From an uncultured bacterium (GTDB taxonomy: Bacteria; Cyanobacteriota; Vampirovibrionia; Gastranaerophilales; Gastranaerophilaceae), in the NCBI GenBank assembly GCA_902766105.1, contig CACXCI010000023.1, positions 1 through 39,620 on the forward strand: DNA of 39,620 nucleotides, read 5' to 3'. A model generated the notes under the pieces. It searched no databases. It was not told where the DNA came from and saw only the letters and a program-made list of their open reading frames with translations. The position numbers and the translations under genes are program-made. Shown one piece after another: positions 30,136 through 36,490 of the stretch (its first letter is position 1; each line of letters starts with the position of its first letter).

Positions 30136-30175
30136 TTATATCCCTCTTTGATAATGTAAAGATGATGTTAAACTA

Positions 30176-30204
30176 ATTATAATTTAATTACAAAAATATG
30201 GCAA
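30176..30204 (-). promoter_or_regulatory. Promoter of the lipoprotein-lgt operon
   Basis: On the minus strand TTGCCA (30204-30199), 17 bp, then TATAAT (30181-30176). The transcript starts about 40 bases before ATG 30135. A plus-strand TACAAT at 30222-30227 would be the -10 for the opposite ClpX-domain operon. Confidence 0.65.
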
Positions 30205-30253
30205 ATTTAATTAATTTAAGTTACAATAATTAAGTAAATAAAGGAGAATTTAT

Positions 30254-30520
30254 ATGTCAGATGACAAAGTGGTCAGCTTAGGTGCAAAGAAAAAGGCAGC
30301 AGAAGAAAAGCATGCAGAAGAAACAACAGGAACAGAACCTGTATATTGTAGTTTCTGCGGCAGACCAAATACAGAAGTTATAAAAATGGTAAAAGGTCCT
30401 GGGGTAAATATTTGTTCAGAATGTGCAATGATTGCTCTACAATACTTAATTTTGCAGGATAGAATGCCGTCTGCTGAAGCTCAGCAGATTTTGGATGCTT
30501 TTTGGGGAAAGGCAAGATAG
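30254..30520 (+). CDS. Stand-alone ClpX zinc-binding domain protein
   Basis: The 88-aa protein has a Lys/Glu-rich leader followed by a complete ClpX-type zinc domain. Cys32-x2-Cys35 and Cys54-x2-Cys57 are spaced by 18 residues, exactly as in ClpX, and the context (YCSFCGRPNTEVIKMVKGPG, then ICSECAMIAL) matches. There is no AAA+ module: the protein ends 30 residues after the last Cys. In ClpX this domain dimerises and binds substrates and adaptors. The free form may be an adaptor, a decoy or a subunit of something else. AAGGAG precedes ATG 30254. It is the first of five tightly packed genes. Confidence 0.9.
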   Translation: MSDDKVVSLGAKKKAAEEKHAEETTGTEPVYCSFCGRPNTEVIKMVKGPGVNICSECAMIALQYLILQDRMPSAEAQQILDAFWGKAR

Positions 30521-30525
30521 TATAA

Positions 30526-32121
30526 ATGAGCGCCAAATTTAAACAATTAAATCCCTTTGAGTTAAAATTTGCTGTTACTGATTTGTTAGATAAAATAAAC
30601 GCAGTAAGCGATATTCAGAATTGTCTTGATGATTTTGAGCTTCTTGATGCGCAAGAAGATAAGAAAATTATTTCAAAGATTTTGTTTAAAGAATTAACAA
30701 AAGTCCAAAAGGATAAAACCCCGATTATATGCTTTTTGTTAGAACATTTTGTCCCAAAGGATGAATTGGTTAACAAATTATGGGAAACATTAAAAAATCC
30801 AAATCTTCAAACTGAGGTTAAAATAACAGTTTTGAATTTATTAAGAGAGTTAGATGCAGATTGGTCTTATGAAGCAGCAGAAGAATTAGAAGACGGGAAT
30901 GAGCTGCTGGATGCCCATACCAAACAGTTATTAAATACGGCAATTATAAACCCAGAAATTCAGATAGATTTTCTCGATTTTATGGCAACAATCAGAGTTC
31001 AGGATAAAATTACTCTGTTAAACTCGCTGAGTGAAGATTTTTCATCAGATGCTTTAGCAAATATTTTAATTCCTGTATTTATGTCAGATCCTGACAGTCC
31101 GGCAGGAAAAGAGGCTCTTAAACTTTTGGCAGATACAAAGTCTGTTTTGGCTTTTCATGTTTTGGAAGAAATGAAAAATATGACAACAGGTGAACTTTTA
31201 CAGGAAATCAAAAGAAGTCTGTCGACCATAAAAATTTCAGGCATGAGGGAAGATAAAACAAAAGAATTTTACAAAGAAATTTTATCAAACAGCAAACCTG
31301 ACAAGTTCTATTTGACATATCCCGATGGGCATGGTGATGTTGCCATGATTTTTACCAGAAAAACCGAAGAAGGTAAAATAAGGTTTGTATCTATTGTAAT
31401 AAACGTGGCAACCGGTATAAAAGATTGTTTTGGATTTTTTGAAATTTCAGAATTTGAATGTAGTAAAATTTTAGAAAGATTTCTTAAAAATGAAAAAACT
31501 GTTGATATTGATTCAAAATCATTTAAGACAATTTTGTACAATGCAGAATTGACAACGATAAAAAATAATCAAAATTCTTGGAAATTACCTTATGAATATG
31601 TTTGCTGGAAAAGTTTGCTGGTAGATATAGAGTATGAAAGTCAAACAATTGAAGAGCTTTTACAGGAACAGATTTTACCTGCAAAAGTAAATAATGATGC
31701 AATAACAAATCTTTTGCAGATGGGAGTTTCTACTCATTGGTTTTTGGATTACAAGTATAGTGATGAATTTGAAAATCTTTTAAAAGCCCTAAAAGATACA
31801 AAGGATATAGACAGTTTGTTAGAACAAAATATTGATAAAGTATTTTATTCAGAAGAAAAAATAGAATGGATTAACAAATTAATTTTATCTGCATATATAA
31901 AATCAGTTATCGGAAAAGATGAACAAGCGCAAATTTTATACGGTATAACACAAGATGATTTGGTTTTGAAAGAGATGTTCGGGCAAATATTACAACGCAG
32001 TATTTATGAATATCTTACGGTTGTTAAATATGATAAAAATATCGAATCCTTTGGTTTGACATACGAGGATATCGAGGGTAAAATCAAATATATTGAAGAT
32101 AAGTGGGTGCAAAATGTATAA
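30526..32121 (+). CDS. Large helical (solenoid-like) protein of unknown function
   Basis: This 531-aa cytosolic protein is not a family I recognise. The first 230 residues are a run of short amphipathic helix pairs reminiscent of HEAT-type repeats (FLLEHFVPKDELVNKLWETL, VKITVLNLLRELDADW). The central part (about 255-345) is beta-rich, beginning FYLTYPDGHGDVAMIFTRK and continuing RFVSIVINVATGIKDCFGF. The final third is helical again. It starts 5 bases after the ClpX-domain gene and overlaps ruvX by 8 bases. Close packing suggests a shared function, perhaps protein quality control, but that is inference. Confidence 0.75.
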   Translation: MSAKFKQLNPFELKFAVTDLLDKINAVSDIQNCLDDFELLDAQEDKKIISKILFKELTKVQKDKTPIICFLLEHFVPKDELVNKLWETLKNPNLQTEVKITVLNLLRELDADWSYEAAEELEDGNELLDAHTKQLLNTAIINPEIQIDFLDFMATIRVQDKITLLNSLSEDFSSDALANILIPVFMSDPDSPAGKEALKLLADTKSVLAFHVLEEMKNMTTGELLQEIKRSLSTIKISGMREDKTKEFYKEILSNSKPDKFYLTYPDGHGDVAMIFTRKTEEGKIRFVSIVINVATGIKDCFGFFEISEFECSKILERFLKNEKTVDIDSKSFKTILYNAELTTIKNNQNSWKLPYEYVCWKSLLVDIEYESQTIEELLQEQILPAKVNNDAITNLLQMGVSTHWFLDYKYSDEFENLLKALKDTKDIDSLLEQNIDKVFYSEEKIEWINKLILSAYIKSVIGKDEQAQILYGITQDDLVLKEMFGQILQRSIYEYLTVVKYDKNIESFGLTYEDIEGKIKYIEDKWVQNV

Positions 32122-32512
32122 AGTTATGGCACTTGATGTCGGAACAAAAAGAATAGGAATTGCGCTTAGTGATTATCTTCTAATGCTTGCAAAAGGTCAT
32201 TCTTACATACCAAGACAGCCTGAAAATAATGCAATAGATACTATTTGCAAGATTGCAAAAGAAAATAACGTTCAAAAAATTGTTGTAGGTGTTCCATATA
32301 ACATGGATGGGACAAAAGGCTCTCAAGCACAGGATTGCGAAAATTTTGCAGCAAAAATTAAAGGATATGAAATAATTTTTGAAGATGAAAGGCTTACATC
32401 TGATACAGCTGAAGAAAATCTCAGAAATAAAAAAATAGATTTCAGAAAAGATAAAGGATTAGTTGATATTGAAAGTGCTTGTATTATACTGGAACAGTAT
32501 CTTGCAAGATAA
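32114..32512 (+). CDS. ruvX: RuvX (YqgF) Holliday-junction-resolvase-fold protein
   Basis: From ATG 32114 the protein is 132 aa. It has the YqgF RNase-H-like motifs MALDVGTKRIGIALSD (first Asp), KIVVGVPYNMDG, FEDERLTSD and a terminal Asp in KGLVDIESACIILEQYL. The family processes the 5' end of 16S pre-rRNA. The frame opens upstream at 32093, but the start inside the overlap matches the family's N-terminus. It precedes the DUF1292 gene; yqgF and a DUF1292 gene are also neighbours in Firmicutes. Confidence 0.94.
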   Translation: MYKVMALDVGTKRIGIALSDYLLMLAKGHSYIPRQPENNAIDTICKIAKENNVQKIVVGVPYNMDGTKGSQAQDCENFAAKIKGYEIIFEDERLTSDTAEENLRNKKIDFRKDKGLVDIESACIILEQYLAR

Positions 32513-32528
32513 GTATAAGGAGAAATTT

Positions 32529-32801
32529 ATGGCTATTGATGAAGAAAACATTATTGAAATTACCGATGAAGATGGTGATGTGATTAAATGTGAACTTTAT
32601 GACATTGTTGAATTTGAAGGTAAACAATATGCACTATTGCTTGAAGCTGATAGTGATGAAGAAGAACCTGAGGTTGTTTTAATGCGTTATACCGAAGAAG
32701 GCGAAGACGTATATTTTGAAACTATTGATGATGATGATGAATTTAATAAAGTTCAGGACTATATAGAATCATTAGAAGAAGAAATTGAAGACGAAGAATA
32801 A
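32529..32801 (+). CDS. DUF1292-family small acidic protein
   Basis: The 90-aa protein starts MAIDEENIIEITDEDGDVIK and ends in a very acidic tail (EDEE). Its order of short beta strands, YALLLEADSDEEEPEVVLMR and FETIDDDDEFNKVQDY, matches the DUF1292 (YrzB) family. The function is unknown. ATG 32529 has AAGGAG close upstream. The frame also opens at 32463, but that would overlap ruvX without a site. Its neighbour ruvX is the usual partner. Confidence 0.88.
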   Translation: MAIDEENIIEITDEDGDVIKCELYDIVEFEGKQYALLLEADSDEEEPEVVLMRYTEEGEDVYFETIDDDDEFNKVQDYIESLEEEIEDEE

Positions 32802-32812
32802 GGAAAAAAATT

Positions 32813-34180
32813 TTGTTTGAAAAATTCACTGAAAAAGCTGTTAATGTAATAGTTGAGGCTCAAAATATTGCTATATATGACCATTCTGATAAGGTATTGG
32901 CTGAACACATGCTTTTAGCACTGGTTAAAGAAACTAAAGGTTTTTGTGCAAAAATTTTTAAAAACTACAATATAACCTATGAACGATTGGCTCAGGAAAT
33001 TTATATGAGTATACATATAGAAGAGGCTGATTTAACCTTTTCTGTTTCGTTCAGCGAAGATTTTAAACGAATTTTGGTTAATGCTCTGAATTTGATTGAA
33101 AAATCGGGTAATCCTACCGTTCATTATGAACATCTTGTTTTGGCGGCCATTACTGATGAAAAAGCAAAACTGTATTCCTATTTGGAAAATCTTGGTTTTG
33201 ATTTAGAAAAATCCCTGCCATTGATAGAAAAGCTTGTACAAAGAAAAGTGAAAAAAGATTATCACCCTGAGCTTGATGAAAATAAAGAGCCGGAAATAAA
33301 TTTAACTCAAGAAACAGATTCTTTGTTCGATAATGAAAAATCAGCAAAAGTGTTTGAAAGAGCCGTTTCCAAACTTTCAACATCAAACTATGAAATTATG
33401 GGAACAGAGCAAATAATTTCTTCAATTTTGGAAGATAAGGAATCCGATTTGGCAAAAATATTATCTGATTTTGGAATTACGGCGGAAATTTTTGAAGAAA
33501 AATTATCACAGGTTAATTCTCGTCAGGCAGAATATGAGGGCAGACAAATTGTGTTTACACCAAATGCCTTTAGCGCAATGAGTTTGGCGCTGCAAACAGC
33601 AAAAGAGCTTGGTTCATCAGAGGTTCTTCCTGAACACATGATTTTAGGTTTGTTAAAGACTAAAAAAGGTGTTGCGTATAATATTTTCAAAGAGCTTCAT
33701 ATTAATGATGATGATTTGGCACACGGTATTATTAAACCTATAGAAAAACAAATGCCGGAAACTCTTACTATCTTGCGTCTTGCGAAACAAGAAGCACGCA
33801 GAATAGGTAGAGGTGTTGTCGGAACAGAAATGTTTTTGCTTGGTATAATAGGAGAAGCGACCGGTATTGGTGCAGTTGTTTTGAATGAACTTGAAATTAA
33901 TATTAAAGATGCTCGTATAATTGTTGAACGTATAATCGGCGGGGCAAACGAGTATACAGACAACGAGGTTGTATTTACCAAAAGGGCAAAAAGAGTTCTT
34001 GAAACTGCGTGGGAACATGCAAAAAAACAAAACAAAACAAAAATTGAATCGTCAGACTTGTTGTGGGCAATAACAACTGAGCCGACATCTTTGGCTATGC
34101 AGGCTTTAGAACAGCTTGGAACTGATGTTGTTGAAATCAGAGAAGGTATTAAAAAGCATACAAGTGTAGATAAAGCATAG
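32813..34180 (+). CDS. Free-standing protein of three Clp_N (ClpC-type) domains, no ATPase
   Basis: The 455-aa protein is made only of ClpA/ClpC N-domain repeats: about 2-145, 172-305 and 312-448, each formed of two copies of a helical motif. Unit 1 opens FEKFTEKAVNVIVEAQ and unit 2 has LPEHMILGLLKTKKGVA. Unit 3 (RLAKQEARRIGRGVVGTEMF, then INIKDARIIVERIIGG) is closest to cyanobacterial ClpC. No Walker A or B motif follows. Clp_N domains recognise substrates and adaptors, so a decoy, adaptor or assembly role is plausible. It starts at TTG 32813 with AAGGA eight bases upstream; no ATG fits better. Confidence 0.87.
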   Translation: MFEKFTEKAVNVIVEAQNIAIYDHSDKVLAEHMLLALVKETKGFCAKIFKNYNITYERLAQEIYMSIHIEEADLTFSVSFSEDFKRILVNALNLIEKSGNPTVHYEHLVLAAITDEKAKLYSYLENLGFDLEKSLPLIEKLVQRKVKKDYHPELDENKEPEINLTQETDSLFDNEKSAKVFERAVSKLSTSNYEIMGTEQIISSILEDKESDLAKILSDFGITAEIFEEKLSQVNSRQAEYEGRQIVFTPNAFSAMSLALQTAKELGSSEVLPEHMILGLLKTKKGVAYNIFKELHINDDDLAHGIIKPIEKQMPETLTILRLAKQEARRIGRGVVGTEMFLLGIIGEATGIGAVVLNELEINIKDARIIVERIIGGANEYTDNEVVFTKRAKRVLETAWEHAKKQNKTKIESSDLLWAITTEPTSLAMQALEQLGTDVVEIREGIKKHTSVDKA

Positions 34181-34546
34181 TAATGACATATTATATTTAC
34201 CCCTAAAAAGTAGGTCGGCGTTGCCACGCCGACAAAGTATAGCAGGTTTGGTGAAACCCAACAATTTTCTCCCCTAATGGGGAGATAAAGAGGGGTGCTG
34301 TCTTATGATTTATAGTACGTTCCCCACCTACCCTCCCTAACGAGGGAGGGAACATGTCATTCTGAGCGTATGCGAGGAATCCAGCTTTTGTAAATTCAAC
34401 TCATACCTCACTCTACCCCTCTCCTATTCTTTAGGAGAGGGAATTATCATTAATACCAATTACTACCCCTAAAAAAGTCTGCGAGAAACTCGCAGACAGA
34501 AACGTTAAGTATTTAGTGCCTAAGGCACTGTTTTATTAAGTTTTTT
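34181..34546. repeat. Cluster of palindromic repeat hairpins, no gene
   Basis: This gap between convergent operons is almost entirely hairpins. GTCGGCGT/ACGCCGAC (34214-34233), GGTTT/AAACC (34245-34258), CTCCCC/GGGGAG (34269-34284), CCCTCCCT/AGGGAGGG (34331-34350), a TCATTCTGA repeat (34357-34381), CCCTCTCCT/AGGAGAGGG (34417-34441), GTCTGCGAG/CTCGCAGAC (34477-34497) and AGTGCC/GGCACT (34515-34529). The last is followed by GTTTTATT and could terminate the plus operon. Confidence 0.8.
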
Positions 34547-36490
34547 CTAAAACCAATGAATATACTCGTTATTAATGCTTGTAATAACAAGCTGTGTTTT
34601 TAAACCAACTTTATAAGATTTTTTGTATTTTATATTATTTTCATCCAATTTTTTGAATATAAGATTTGCAGTATTTTTCTCCCCTTGTCTTTCTGCATCA
34701 TCAAGGACAATAACAAAATCTTGTGCCAAATTTTGTGGTATCAATTCAAGAATATTTGTCCTTGGATAAGTTCTGCTATAACCAAATGGTCCATCAATTA
34801 TTACCAAATCAAATCTTTTATCTTGAACAATATCATCTAATGAATCATATTTATCAGATTCAACATCATTTAGAATAAATTTGACTAAATCTTTATGGTG
34901 AACTTGAATATTACTTGTTAAATTTAATTTTTGACAAAAAATATTAATCCAATCTTGATTATGCTCTACAACATTTAGACAAGAATCTTGATAAAAATTC
35001 GCATATTGGCTTGTTAATTTTGTTGTTTGACCAAGCCCCATTTCAAGTATATTTTGGGGTTTAATTTCGTCCAGTATTTTAAATAAAATAAAAATAAATG
35101 AATAATTAGCTGCCCCAAGAGTTAATGTAAAATCTTGTTTTTTTAGCCAAGGAGAATTTTCTGTACAATTTTTCATAACCTCAGCATACATAATTTCTTT
35201 TGATCTGATTTGTAAATCATTAGAAATAGTTTTTATTTGGCTTATTTCTTTTGTTGTGAGCGAAATATCTTGTTGTAAATTATTAATATATTTATTTTGT
35301 TGTTCAAGTTTTTGCTCTTGTTGAGATAATTTTACTGCTGCTTGAGAAATCTGTTCTTGCTGCTGTGATATTAATATTGAAGATTGAGAAATTTGTTCTT
35401 GTAATTTTTTTATTACTTTTTTCTGGGATTGAACAGATTTTAATATTTTGTCAATTTTTTCATTTTTCTTTTTTTCTTCTTGGCGTTTGATAAGCTTCTT
35501 ACTTTTGAATTTGAACTTAATGCCAAAAATTGTGATAACCTTGCGCACACCCTCGTTTTTAATTGAAAACATTTTTTCAAATATATTTTCCGGTCGTTTA
35601 ATTTTTTTTAAAAATTCAGGATTATATATTTTACAAAATTCCTTTATTGATTTGTAATACTGTCTTTTATATATTTCATCATATTTATTATAGTTGTTTA
35701 CAACTGTATTACTATAAGATTTTTGGTATTGACTATAGATTTTTTTATCAATCTTTATTGATTGTAAATAATCTAAAACCATCCCTGCTATTTTTACAAA
35801 GTCAAGGTGATTTTTTGCCCAATTTTGAGTAATAGATTGGCTGTGAATACGTCTAAAATATAATGTATCTTTTAAGATTCCACATTTTTGAGCATTCATT
35901 AATGCTTTGCAAAAAAATACATTATCTTCAAAACATAAATGTGGTGGAAACTCGATATTATAATCTTTTAAAAATGAATGTTTATATATTGTTAGACAAG
36001 AACTAACTGCCATTTTTGTTATGAAATTAGTACACTCTTTATAGTTAAAACAATCTGTACTAAAATCTTCAGGTAAATATCTGAATTCATAATACGGATT
36101 ACCTAAAATCTCTCTTGTCATATTATCAAAATTTGTACCCCCAAAAGACAGCATATCTAAATCATTTTCTTTTGCTTTTTGATATAGCTTTTCCAAAGTA
36201 TCTTGTCTTATATAATCATCCGAATCGACGCACAAAACATATTCACCTGTTGCAATTTTTAAGGCATTATTACGAGAACAAGCTAACCCTTGATTTTCTT
36301 GTGTTATGATTTTTATTCTACTATCTTTTTGAGCATATTCTTCTAAAATTTGAGAACAGCCATCATCAGAACCATCATTTACACAGATAATTTCAATATC
36401 TTTTAGAGTCTGATTAACAACTGAATCTAAACACTCTCTTAGGTATCTTTCAACATTATATACAGCGATAATCAAACTAATTTTAGGCAT
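34547..36490 (-). CDS. GT2 glycosyltransferase fused to a coiled coil and a methyltransferase-like domain
   Basis: The 647-aa protein has three parts. The GT2 domain is at about 1-240 (ISLIIAVYNVERYLRECLDS, IEIICVNDGSDDG, VDSDDYI). A linker ends in the shared VRKVITIFGIKFKFKSKKL motif, followed by a Gln-rich coiled coil (about 335-440). The C-terminal domain (about 455-647) has a SAM-methyltransferase-like fold: PQNILEMGLGQTTKL, VVEHNQDW, FDLVIIDGPFG and VIVLDDAERQG. It would act on a surface-glycan lipid intermediate at the cytoplasmic face. Whether the last domain binds SAM is unproven. AAGGAG precedes ATG 36490, which overlaps the epimerase stop by 8 bases. Confidence 0.88.
   Translation of the reverse strand: MPKISLIIAVYNVERYLRECLDSVVNQTLKDIEIICVNDGSDDGCSQILEEYAQKDSRIKIITQENQGLACSRNNALKIATGEYVLCVDSDDYIRQDTLEKLYQKAKENDLDMLSFGGTNFDNMTREILGNPYYEFRYLPEDFSTDCFNYKECTNFITKMAVSSCLTIYKHSFLKDYNIEFPPHLCFEDNVFFCKALMNAQKCGILKDTLYFRRIHSQSITQNWAKNHLDFVKIAGMVLDYLQSIKIDKKIYSQYQKSYSNTVVNNYNKYDEIYKRQYYKSIKEFCKIYNPEFLKKIKRPENIFEKMFSIKNEGVRKVITIFGIKFKFKSKKLIKRQEEKKKNEKIDKILKSVQSQKKVIKKLQEQISQSSILISQQQEQISQAAVKLSQQEQKLEQQNKYINNLQQDISLTTKEISQIKTISNDLQIRSKEIMYAEVMKNCTENSPWLKKQDFTLTLGAANYSFIFILFKILDEIKPQNILEMGLGQTTKLTSQYANFYQDSCLNVVEHNQDWINIFCQKLNLTSNIQVHHKDLVKFILNDVESDKYDSLDDIVQDKRFDLVIIDGPFGYSRTYPRTNILELIPQNLAQDFVIVLDDAERQGEKNTANLIFKKLDENNIKYKKSYKVGLKTQLVITSINNEYIHWF

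Follow-up and report, generated by a model that had tools for sequence, protein, structure and literature searches.

Two Clp recognition domains that lack a motor are encoded together in a five-gene operon of an uncultured bacterium of the order Gastranaerophilales. The first, ZBD, is a free-standing zinc domain of the ClpX type, and the second, ClpN, is a chain of three N-domains of the ClpC type. The window analyzed is contig C23 (39,620 nucleotides) of a 1.89 Mb, 99.75% complete genome that is closest, within the genome collection, to Gastranaerophilales (Candidatus Melainabacteria). These bacteria are gut-associated, non-photosynthetic relatives of cyanobacteria. The operon occupies positions 30254-34180 of the forward strand and encodes, in this order, ZBD (88 amino acids [aa]), HEL (531 aa), RuvX (132 aa), a DUF1292 protein (90 aa) and ClpN (455 aa). 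ZBD and HEL are 5 bases apart, HEL and RuvX overlap by 8 bases, and 16 and 11 bases separate RuvX from DUF1292 and DUF1292 from ClpN, respectively; a preliminary description of this DNA had recorded the same close packing. ZBD and ClpN are real, constrained and old in the order, and they evolve as two modules. The reading that is tentatively favored here, although it falls a little short of an even chance, is that they are two largely independent Clp recognition modules that act in trans and share an operon only through late relocation.

ClpN: a triple ClpC N-domain protein

ClpN scores 138.7 bits against the Pfam family Clp_N over five stretches, and Clp_N is its sole Pfam domain above the cut-off. 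No AAA domain of ClpN passes the Pfam cut-off, so the two AAA+ modules of ClpC and the ClpP-binding loop are missing from this protein. All three parts of ClpN hit full ClpC N-domains in the PDB, and domain 3 is the most ClpC-like (Arabidopsis ClpC1, E-value: 2e-28). A Foldseek search with the ClpN model (mean predicted local distance difference test [pLDDT] score of 77) retrieves ClpC N-domains, many at a root mean square deviation of 1.2-1.5 Å. Arabidopsis ClpT2 stands lower among the matches (4y0c, E-value: 6e-5), and ClpC2 chains match weakly (E-values: 4e-6 to 1e-3). The three ClpC-type Clp_N units without an ATPase that had been read from the sequence at the outset are therefore three complete N-domains.

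Conservation across the order is lowest in domain 1 (38-41% mean pairwise identity), intermediate in domain 2 (49-59%) and highest in domain 3 (57-62%). Domain 1 has phenylalanine at the positions of the cyclomarin site that correspond to F2 and F80 of ClpC1. The glutamate of what we take to be the phospho-arginine pocket of ClpC is kept in most half-repeats; it was judged too general a feature of Clp_N proteins to bear on phospho-arginine binding. A search for the phospho-arginine kinase McsB gave no match in the window genome, nor in any control genome. The window ClpN has a TTG start codon (32813-32815), which 63 of 80 relatives share, and the conservation of this weak start hints at low expression.

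ZBD: a stand-alone ClpX-type zinc domain

ZBD scores 49.5 bits against the Pfam family zf-C4_ClpX (cut-off: 27), and the solved structures closest to it are ClpX zinc domains from E. coli (1ovx and 2ds5-2ds8). It shares with the ClpX zinc domain both the spacing of the cysteines (C32-x2-C35-x18-C54-x2-C57) and the core residues. No AAA+ module, with its Walker motifs and ClpP-binding loop, is present in ZBD: the 88-aa protein has one short conserved stretch behind the zinc domain and then ends, and the score against the ClpX equivalog profile is 29 bits (cut-off: 359). The protein is thus a complete ClpX zinc domain with nothing of the motor behind it, as had been proposed. In order-wide alignments, two further traits are particular to ZBD: a K-[VI]-[VI] tail at the N-terminus, joined by a variable linker, and a conserved C-terminal stretch around SAEAQQILDAFW that is probably a helix. 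The tail loosely resembles those by which SspB and UmuD bind ClpX, which is a lead only. Across the order, ZBD adjoins HEL on its upstream side, mostly at a distance of 8 bases or less or with an overlap. The genes that strictly accompany it are those of HEL and RuvX, not that of ClpN.

Distribution and selection

Genomes with ZBD and ClpN were tallied by hand from listed scores. Stand-alone ZBD is present in 56 of the 59 order genomes of a first sample, in which the three genomes without it are 66-84% complete, and in 82 of 85 in a second, where it is missing from three genomes of genus g30, each 99% complete. ClpN is present in 142/144 order genomes of one sample and 16/19 of another, and no full-length ClpN was found outside the order in 96 genomes of the class. 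Either gene may be missing where the other is kept (ZBD in G209, G219 and G228; ClpN in G042). When 23 genomes outside the order were searched with a wider zinc profile, two had additional fingers in short frames and the remainder had ClpX-type frames only. Short-frame fingers of the ClpX type are found in another family of the class (G059:C6:10801-10938 and G088:C22:264-539; frames of 147 and 111 aa), and one of these frames holds two zinc fingers in tandem.

The median ratio of nonsynonymous to synonymous substitution (dN/dS), taken over pairs with unsaturated synonymous change, is 0.12 for ZBD, 0.08 for HEL (14 pairs), 0.13 for RuvX, 0.30 for DUF1292 and 0.04 for ClpN (29 pairs). Both ZBD and ClpN are under purifying selection. 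The five-gene order is kept in all of the 80 relatives whose contig has sufficient length; because of this retention and the low dN/dS values, the arrangement is not attributable to chance. An oddity of a single genome lineage is ruled out by the order-wide presence of ZBD and ClpN.

Intact Clp machines and ClpS

The full Clp machines are encoded elsewhere in the genome. A tig-clpP-clpX cluster is intact on another contig (clpP: 196 aa, clpX: 435 aa), clpC is an 847-aa open frame whose N-domain is normal, and a third Clp_N gene is ClpB-like (868 aa). Because clpP-clpX and clpC are intact, ZBD and ClpN are additional to these machines; the intact copies, together with purifying selection, also rule out that either gene is a truncated or decayed clpX or clpC.

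ClpS was not found in the window genome, while five control genomes gave matches. A survey of 30 genomes found it in none of the 15 sampled Gastranaerophilales. It is missing also from sampled genomes of the neighboring families f9, f10, f11, f12, f14 and f15, which are without ZBD and full-length ClpN, and is present in f8, f13 and Cyanobacteria. Since ClpS was lost more widely than ZBD and ClpN were gained, a simple replacement of ClpS by these proteins is unsupported. The literature searched contained nothing on the Clp proteases of Gastranaerophilales.

Assembly of the operon

HEL is followed directly by RuvX in 6/6 loci of two other families (f9 and f15), where ZBD and DUF1292 are not beside them; in f14, HEL is present and RuvX was not seen adjoining it. 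HEL-RuvX is the oldest part of the operon and predates the order. ZBD, HEL, RuvX and DUF1292 stand together in every Gastranaerophilales branch examined with two exceptions, a genome whose contig ends right past ZBD and the ZBD losses of g30. In the early branches (L182-L189, L200 and L201), ClpN stands by itself, well away from the operon, with varied neighbors. A single branch of the ClpN tree separates the 31 operon-linked proteins from the rest (support 100/99; one change; 100% of bootstrap trees). Since the linked copies are one clade, a single relocation of ClpN to the operon's end is the most economical reading. The expected proximity of ZBD and ClpN in related genomes is thus borne out for the derived clade, in all long loci, and not for the early branches. 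As the two genes became neighbors once and late, their products need not work as a pair.

In genus g30, tilS-hpt follows ClpN, and several of these genomes are without ZBD. In four of six g30 loci (L181, L192, L193 and L195), clpP-clpX lies 2.1-4.4 kb downstream of ClpN on the same strand.

HEL and RuvX

A Pfam scan of the window HEL protein gave no family. Its AlphaFold2 model (mean pLDDT 84) has HEAT-like helical pairs at aa 10-240, then a four-stranded sheet and then a helical C-terminal part. The alpha/beta domain (about aa 245-350) carries the conserved motifs TYPDGHG and GIKDCFGF, and no PDB chain matched the model with an E-value below 0.05 in a fold search. The helical protein that the preliminary description could not name can be refined to a HEAT-repeat protein with a central sheet. 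In other families of the class (L190 and L203-L207), too, HEL immediately precedes ruvX. It is older than the Clp-like genes and may be an unrecognized partner of RuvX. RuvX itself is assigned by PF03652 (E-value: 1e-36) and TIGR00250 (108.7 bits, cut-off: 43). Its role in vivo is debated. RuvX/YqgF has been linked to 16S rRNA processing in E. coli and to rRNA digestion in Deinococcus (PMC9601230).

Proposed roles and alternatives

Under the favored reading of two recognition modules, ClpN would offer three motor-free ClpC N-domains on one chain and bind what docks on the N-domain of ClpC, be it a substrate (unfolded or marked), an adaptor or a small molecule. It would hold these ligands, compete for them or hand them to ClpCP. 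Judged by analogy, ClpN probably binds ClpC substrates or adaptors, and with three domains in a row it may capture substrates, adaptors or small ligands avidly in trans. The best analogy is mycobacterial ClpC2, whose single N-domain competes with ClpC1 for a ligand (PMC10030653). ZBD would serve the HEAT protein and RuvX as a dedicated partner, most likely through protein-protein docking, and would either dock with ClpX zinc domains or adaptor tails or form the peptide-binding subunit of a HEAT-RuvX complex. It possibly serves the HEAT-RuvX module by way of ClpX; such a contact is plausible because isolated ClpX zinc domains dimerize and serve in the docking of adaptors and substrates (PMC9035409). 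All of these binding partners, and any effect on degradation, we infer. Two modules are favored over one because of the independent losses and the single late linkage. The proximity of ClpN to clpP-clpX in g30, the N-domain folds of ClpN, the C4 core of ZBD and the order-wide retention of both proteins support a Clp-related role. Several points weigh against it. Domain homology leaves open whether ZBD and ClpN still meet their old partners, the genomic partners of ZBD (HEL and RuvX) carry no known Clp role, and no recognized Clp gene is found among the neighbors of ClpN in the early branches. In addition, the GTEH motif carried by ClpC is lost from the second half of ClpN domain 3, and binding may differ.

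The preliminary description had suggested one regulatory operon, in which ZBD and ClpN act together as a pair of adaptors or decoys to redirect both ClpXP and ClpCP, with ribosome maturation perhaps tied in through RuvX. Parts of that interpretation hold: the machines are intact elsewhere, both proteins are constrained across the order, and both are close homologs of domains through which Clp proteins bind substrates and adaptors. Both genes are also nearly order-wide, the derived clade keeps a single operon in all long loci, and one genus has clpP-clpX downstream as well. However, ZBD and ClpN are unlinked in all early branches examined, were linked once and can each be lost alone. Evolution of the two as one unit is not supported, and joint action of this kind is improbable. 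A bolder version makes the derived operon a hub, in an order without detectable ClpS: HEAT-RuvX would sense or process immature 16S rRNA, ZBD would bring ClpXP (or withhold adaptors) and ClpN would bring substrates to ClpCP. The ribosome link in this scheme comes from the action of RuvX/YqgF on rRNA in E. coli and Deinococcus (PMC9601230) and from nothing else, and we give the hub only a slight chance. Unlikely too, if the most credible of the rivals, is that ZBD is a zinc ribbon put to a new use, with the HEAT protein and RuvX as its only working partners, in 16S rRNA processing or ribosome quality control, that it makes no Clp contact and that ClpN is an unrelated passenger. The HEL-RuvX adjacency that predates the order and the position of ZBD directly upstream of HEL agree with this, as does the reported occurrence of the zf-C4_ClpX finger outside ClpX, for example on cyanobacterial sigma factors (PMC11119718). 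It leaves the uptake of a ClpX-type finger, and ClpN, unexplained, however, and its RNA role for RuvX is taken from other bacteria (PMC9601230).

Two further alternatives concern ClpN. It could be a ClpT-like accessory subunit seated on the ClpP ring, where it would stabilize or activate the core of the protease: ClpT proteins are accessory subunits found in association with that ring (PMC7966870), ClpN is near clpP in one genus, and ClpT2 is among its fold matches. The sequence of ClpN is far nearer to ClpC N-domains than to ClpT, however, and the ClpT2 match is a single unit of 158 residues against three units in ClpN, so that this role has a low probability. ClpN could also be a sponge for antibiotics aimed at the ClpC N-domain, sharing both its logic and its fold with mycobacterial ClpC2 (PMC10030653). 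The phenylalanines of domain 1 at the cyclomarin-site positions would fit, whereas the order-wide, housekeeping distribution and the hint of low expression are unlike an inducible resistance gene. To our knowledge, no ClpC-targeting antibiotic acts on these bacteria, and a sponge is the most remote of the roles weighed here.

Features of the operon and its surroundings

The features of the region are listed in Table 1. The operon promoter presumably lies in the intergenic region upstream of ZBD, where a weak sigma-70-like match (30198-30227, + strand) is no better than chance expectation. A candidate internal promoter before RuvX (32056-32084, 11/12 match) was rejected, being within chance numbers and having no consistent match at that place in relatives. 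Terminator-like hairpins occur at 7 sites in the region versus 2.0 expected. An Rfam scan of the window gave no match. Downstream, on the reverse strand (34547-36490), a 647-aa protein within a sugar gene cluster has an N-terminal family-2 glycosyltransferase, a coiled-coil-like middle and a final third that matches no assigned domain.

Table 1. Features of the ZBD-ClpN operon and its flanks (window positions; TPR, tetratricopeptide repeat)
Feature	Position	Strand	Basis
Intergenic region, divergent TPR lipoprotein/lgt pair to operon	30136..30253	.	Sequence
ZBD, free-standing ClpX-type C4 zinc domain	30254..30520	+	Pfam zf-C4_ClpX, PDB matches, alignments
HEL, HEAT-repeat scaffold (aa 1-240), novel alpha/beta domain and helical C-terminal part	30526..32121	+	AlphaFold2 model
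RuvX (YqgF)	32114..32512	+	PF03652 and TIGR00250
DUF1292 protein, acidic, 90 aa	32529..32801	+	PF06949, 50 bits (cut-off: 24)
ClpN, three tandem ClpC-type N-domains, TTG start	32813..34180	+	Clp_N profile, model
ClpN domain 1 (aa 1-146)	32813..33250	+	ClpC N-domains, E-value: 7e-14
ClpN domain 2 (aa 169-312)	33317..33748	+	ClpC N-domains, E-value: 1e-13
ClpN domain 3 (aa 313-455)	33749..34177	+	Arabidopsis ClpC1 N-domain, E-value: 2e-28
Terminator-like hairpin 3' of operon	34417..34441	+	10-pair stem

Significance and comparison with known systems

Free Clp recognition domains were previously known in few cases (ClpC2 and ClpT). The literature searched contained no order-wide, strongly constrained triple ClpC N-domain protein and no stand-alone ClpX zinc domain tied to RuvX. 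ZBD and ClpN are small, well-defined proteins with which the action of Clp recognition domains in trans (as decoys, adaptors or storage) can be probed. The analysis also draws attention to an uncharacterized HEAT protein with a long history beside RuvX in genomes, and this partnership is an unexpected and perhaps more tractable lead.

The RuvX-DUF1292 part of the operon recalls what we take to be the yrrK-yrzB pair of Firmicutes, in which both families are adjacent in the identical order; here, ZBD-HEL precedes the pair, and ClpN follows it in the derived clade. Mycobacterial ClpC2 is a homolog of the ClpC1 N-domain without an ATPase, which binds the ClpC1-targeting drug cyclomarin A and shields ClpC1 (PMC10030653). 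Like ClpN, it places a motor-free ClpC-type N-domain on a separate protein alongside an intact ClpC. ClpC2 has one N-domain behind a 4-helix dimerization domain (residues 4-72; PMC10030653), whereas ClpN, from Gastranaerophilales, begins directly with an N-domain, has three of them and lacks the 4-helix leader. ClpT1 and ClpT2, of a type described as unique to algae and plants and as low in sequence similarity (PMC7966870), share with ClpN a free-standing Clp_N-like fold, as judged by the fold match; ClpN differs in being triple and ClpC-like. ZBD has the C4 zinc domain of the ClpX N-terminus, with equal cysteine spacing and core residues, but is without the AAA+ motor, has its own tail and C-terminal helix and lies directly upstream of HEL. 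The literature searched on stand-alone ClpX zinc domains held one passing mention of such domains (PMC11119718), on some cyanobacterial sigma factors. There, too, the finger is separate from the ClpX motor, whereas ZBD is an entire small protein, conserved order-wide and tied to HEL-RuvX.

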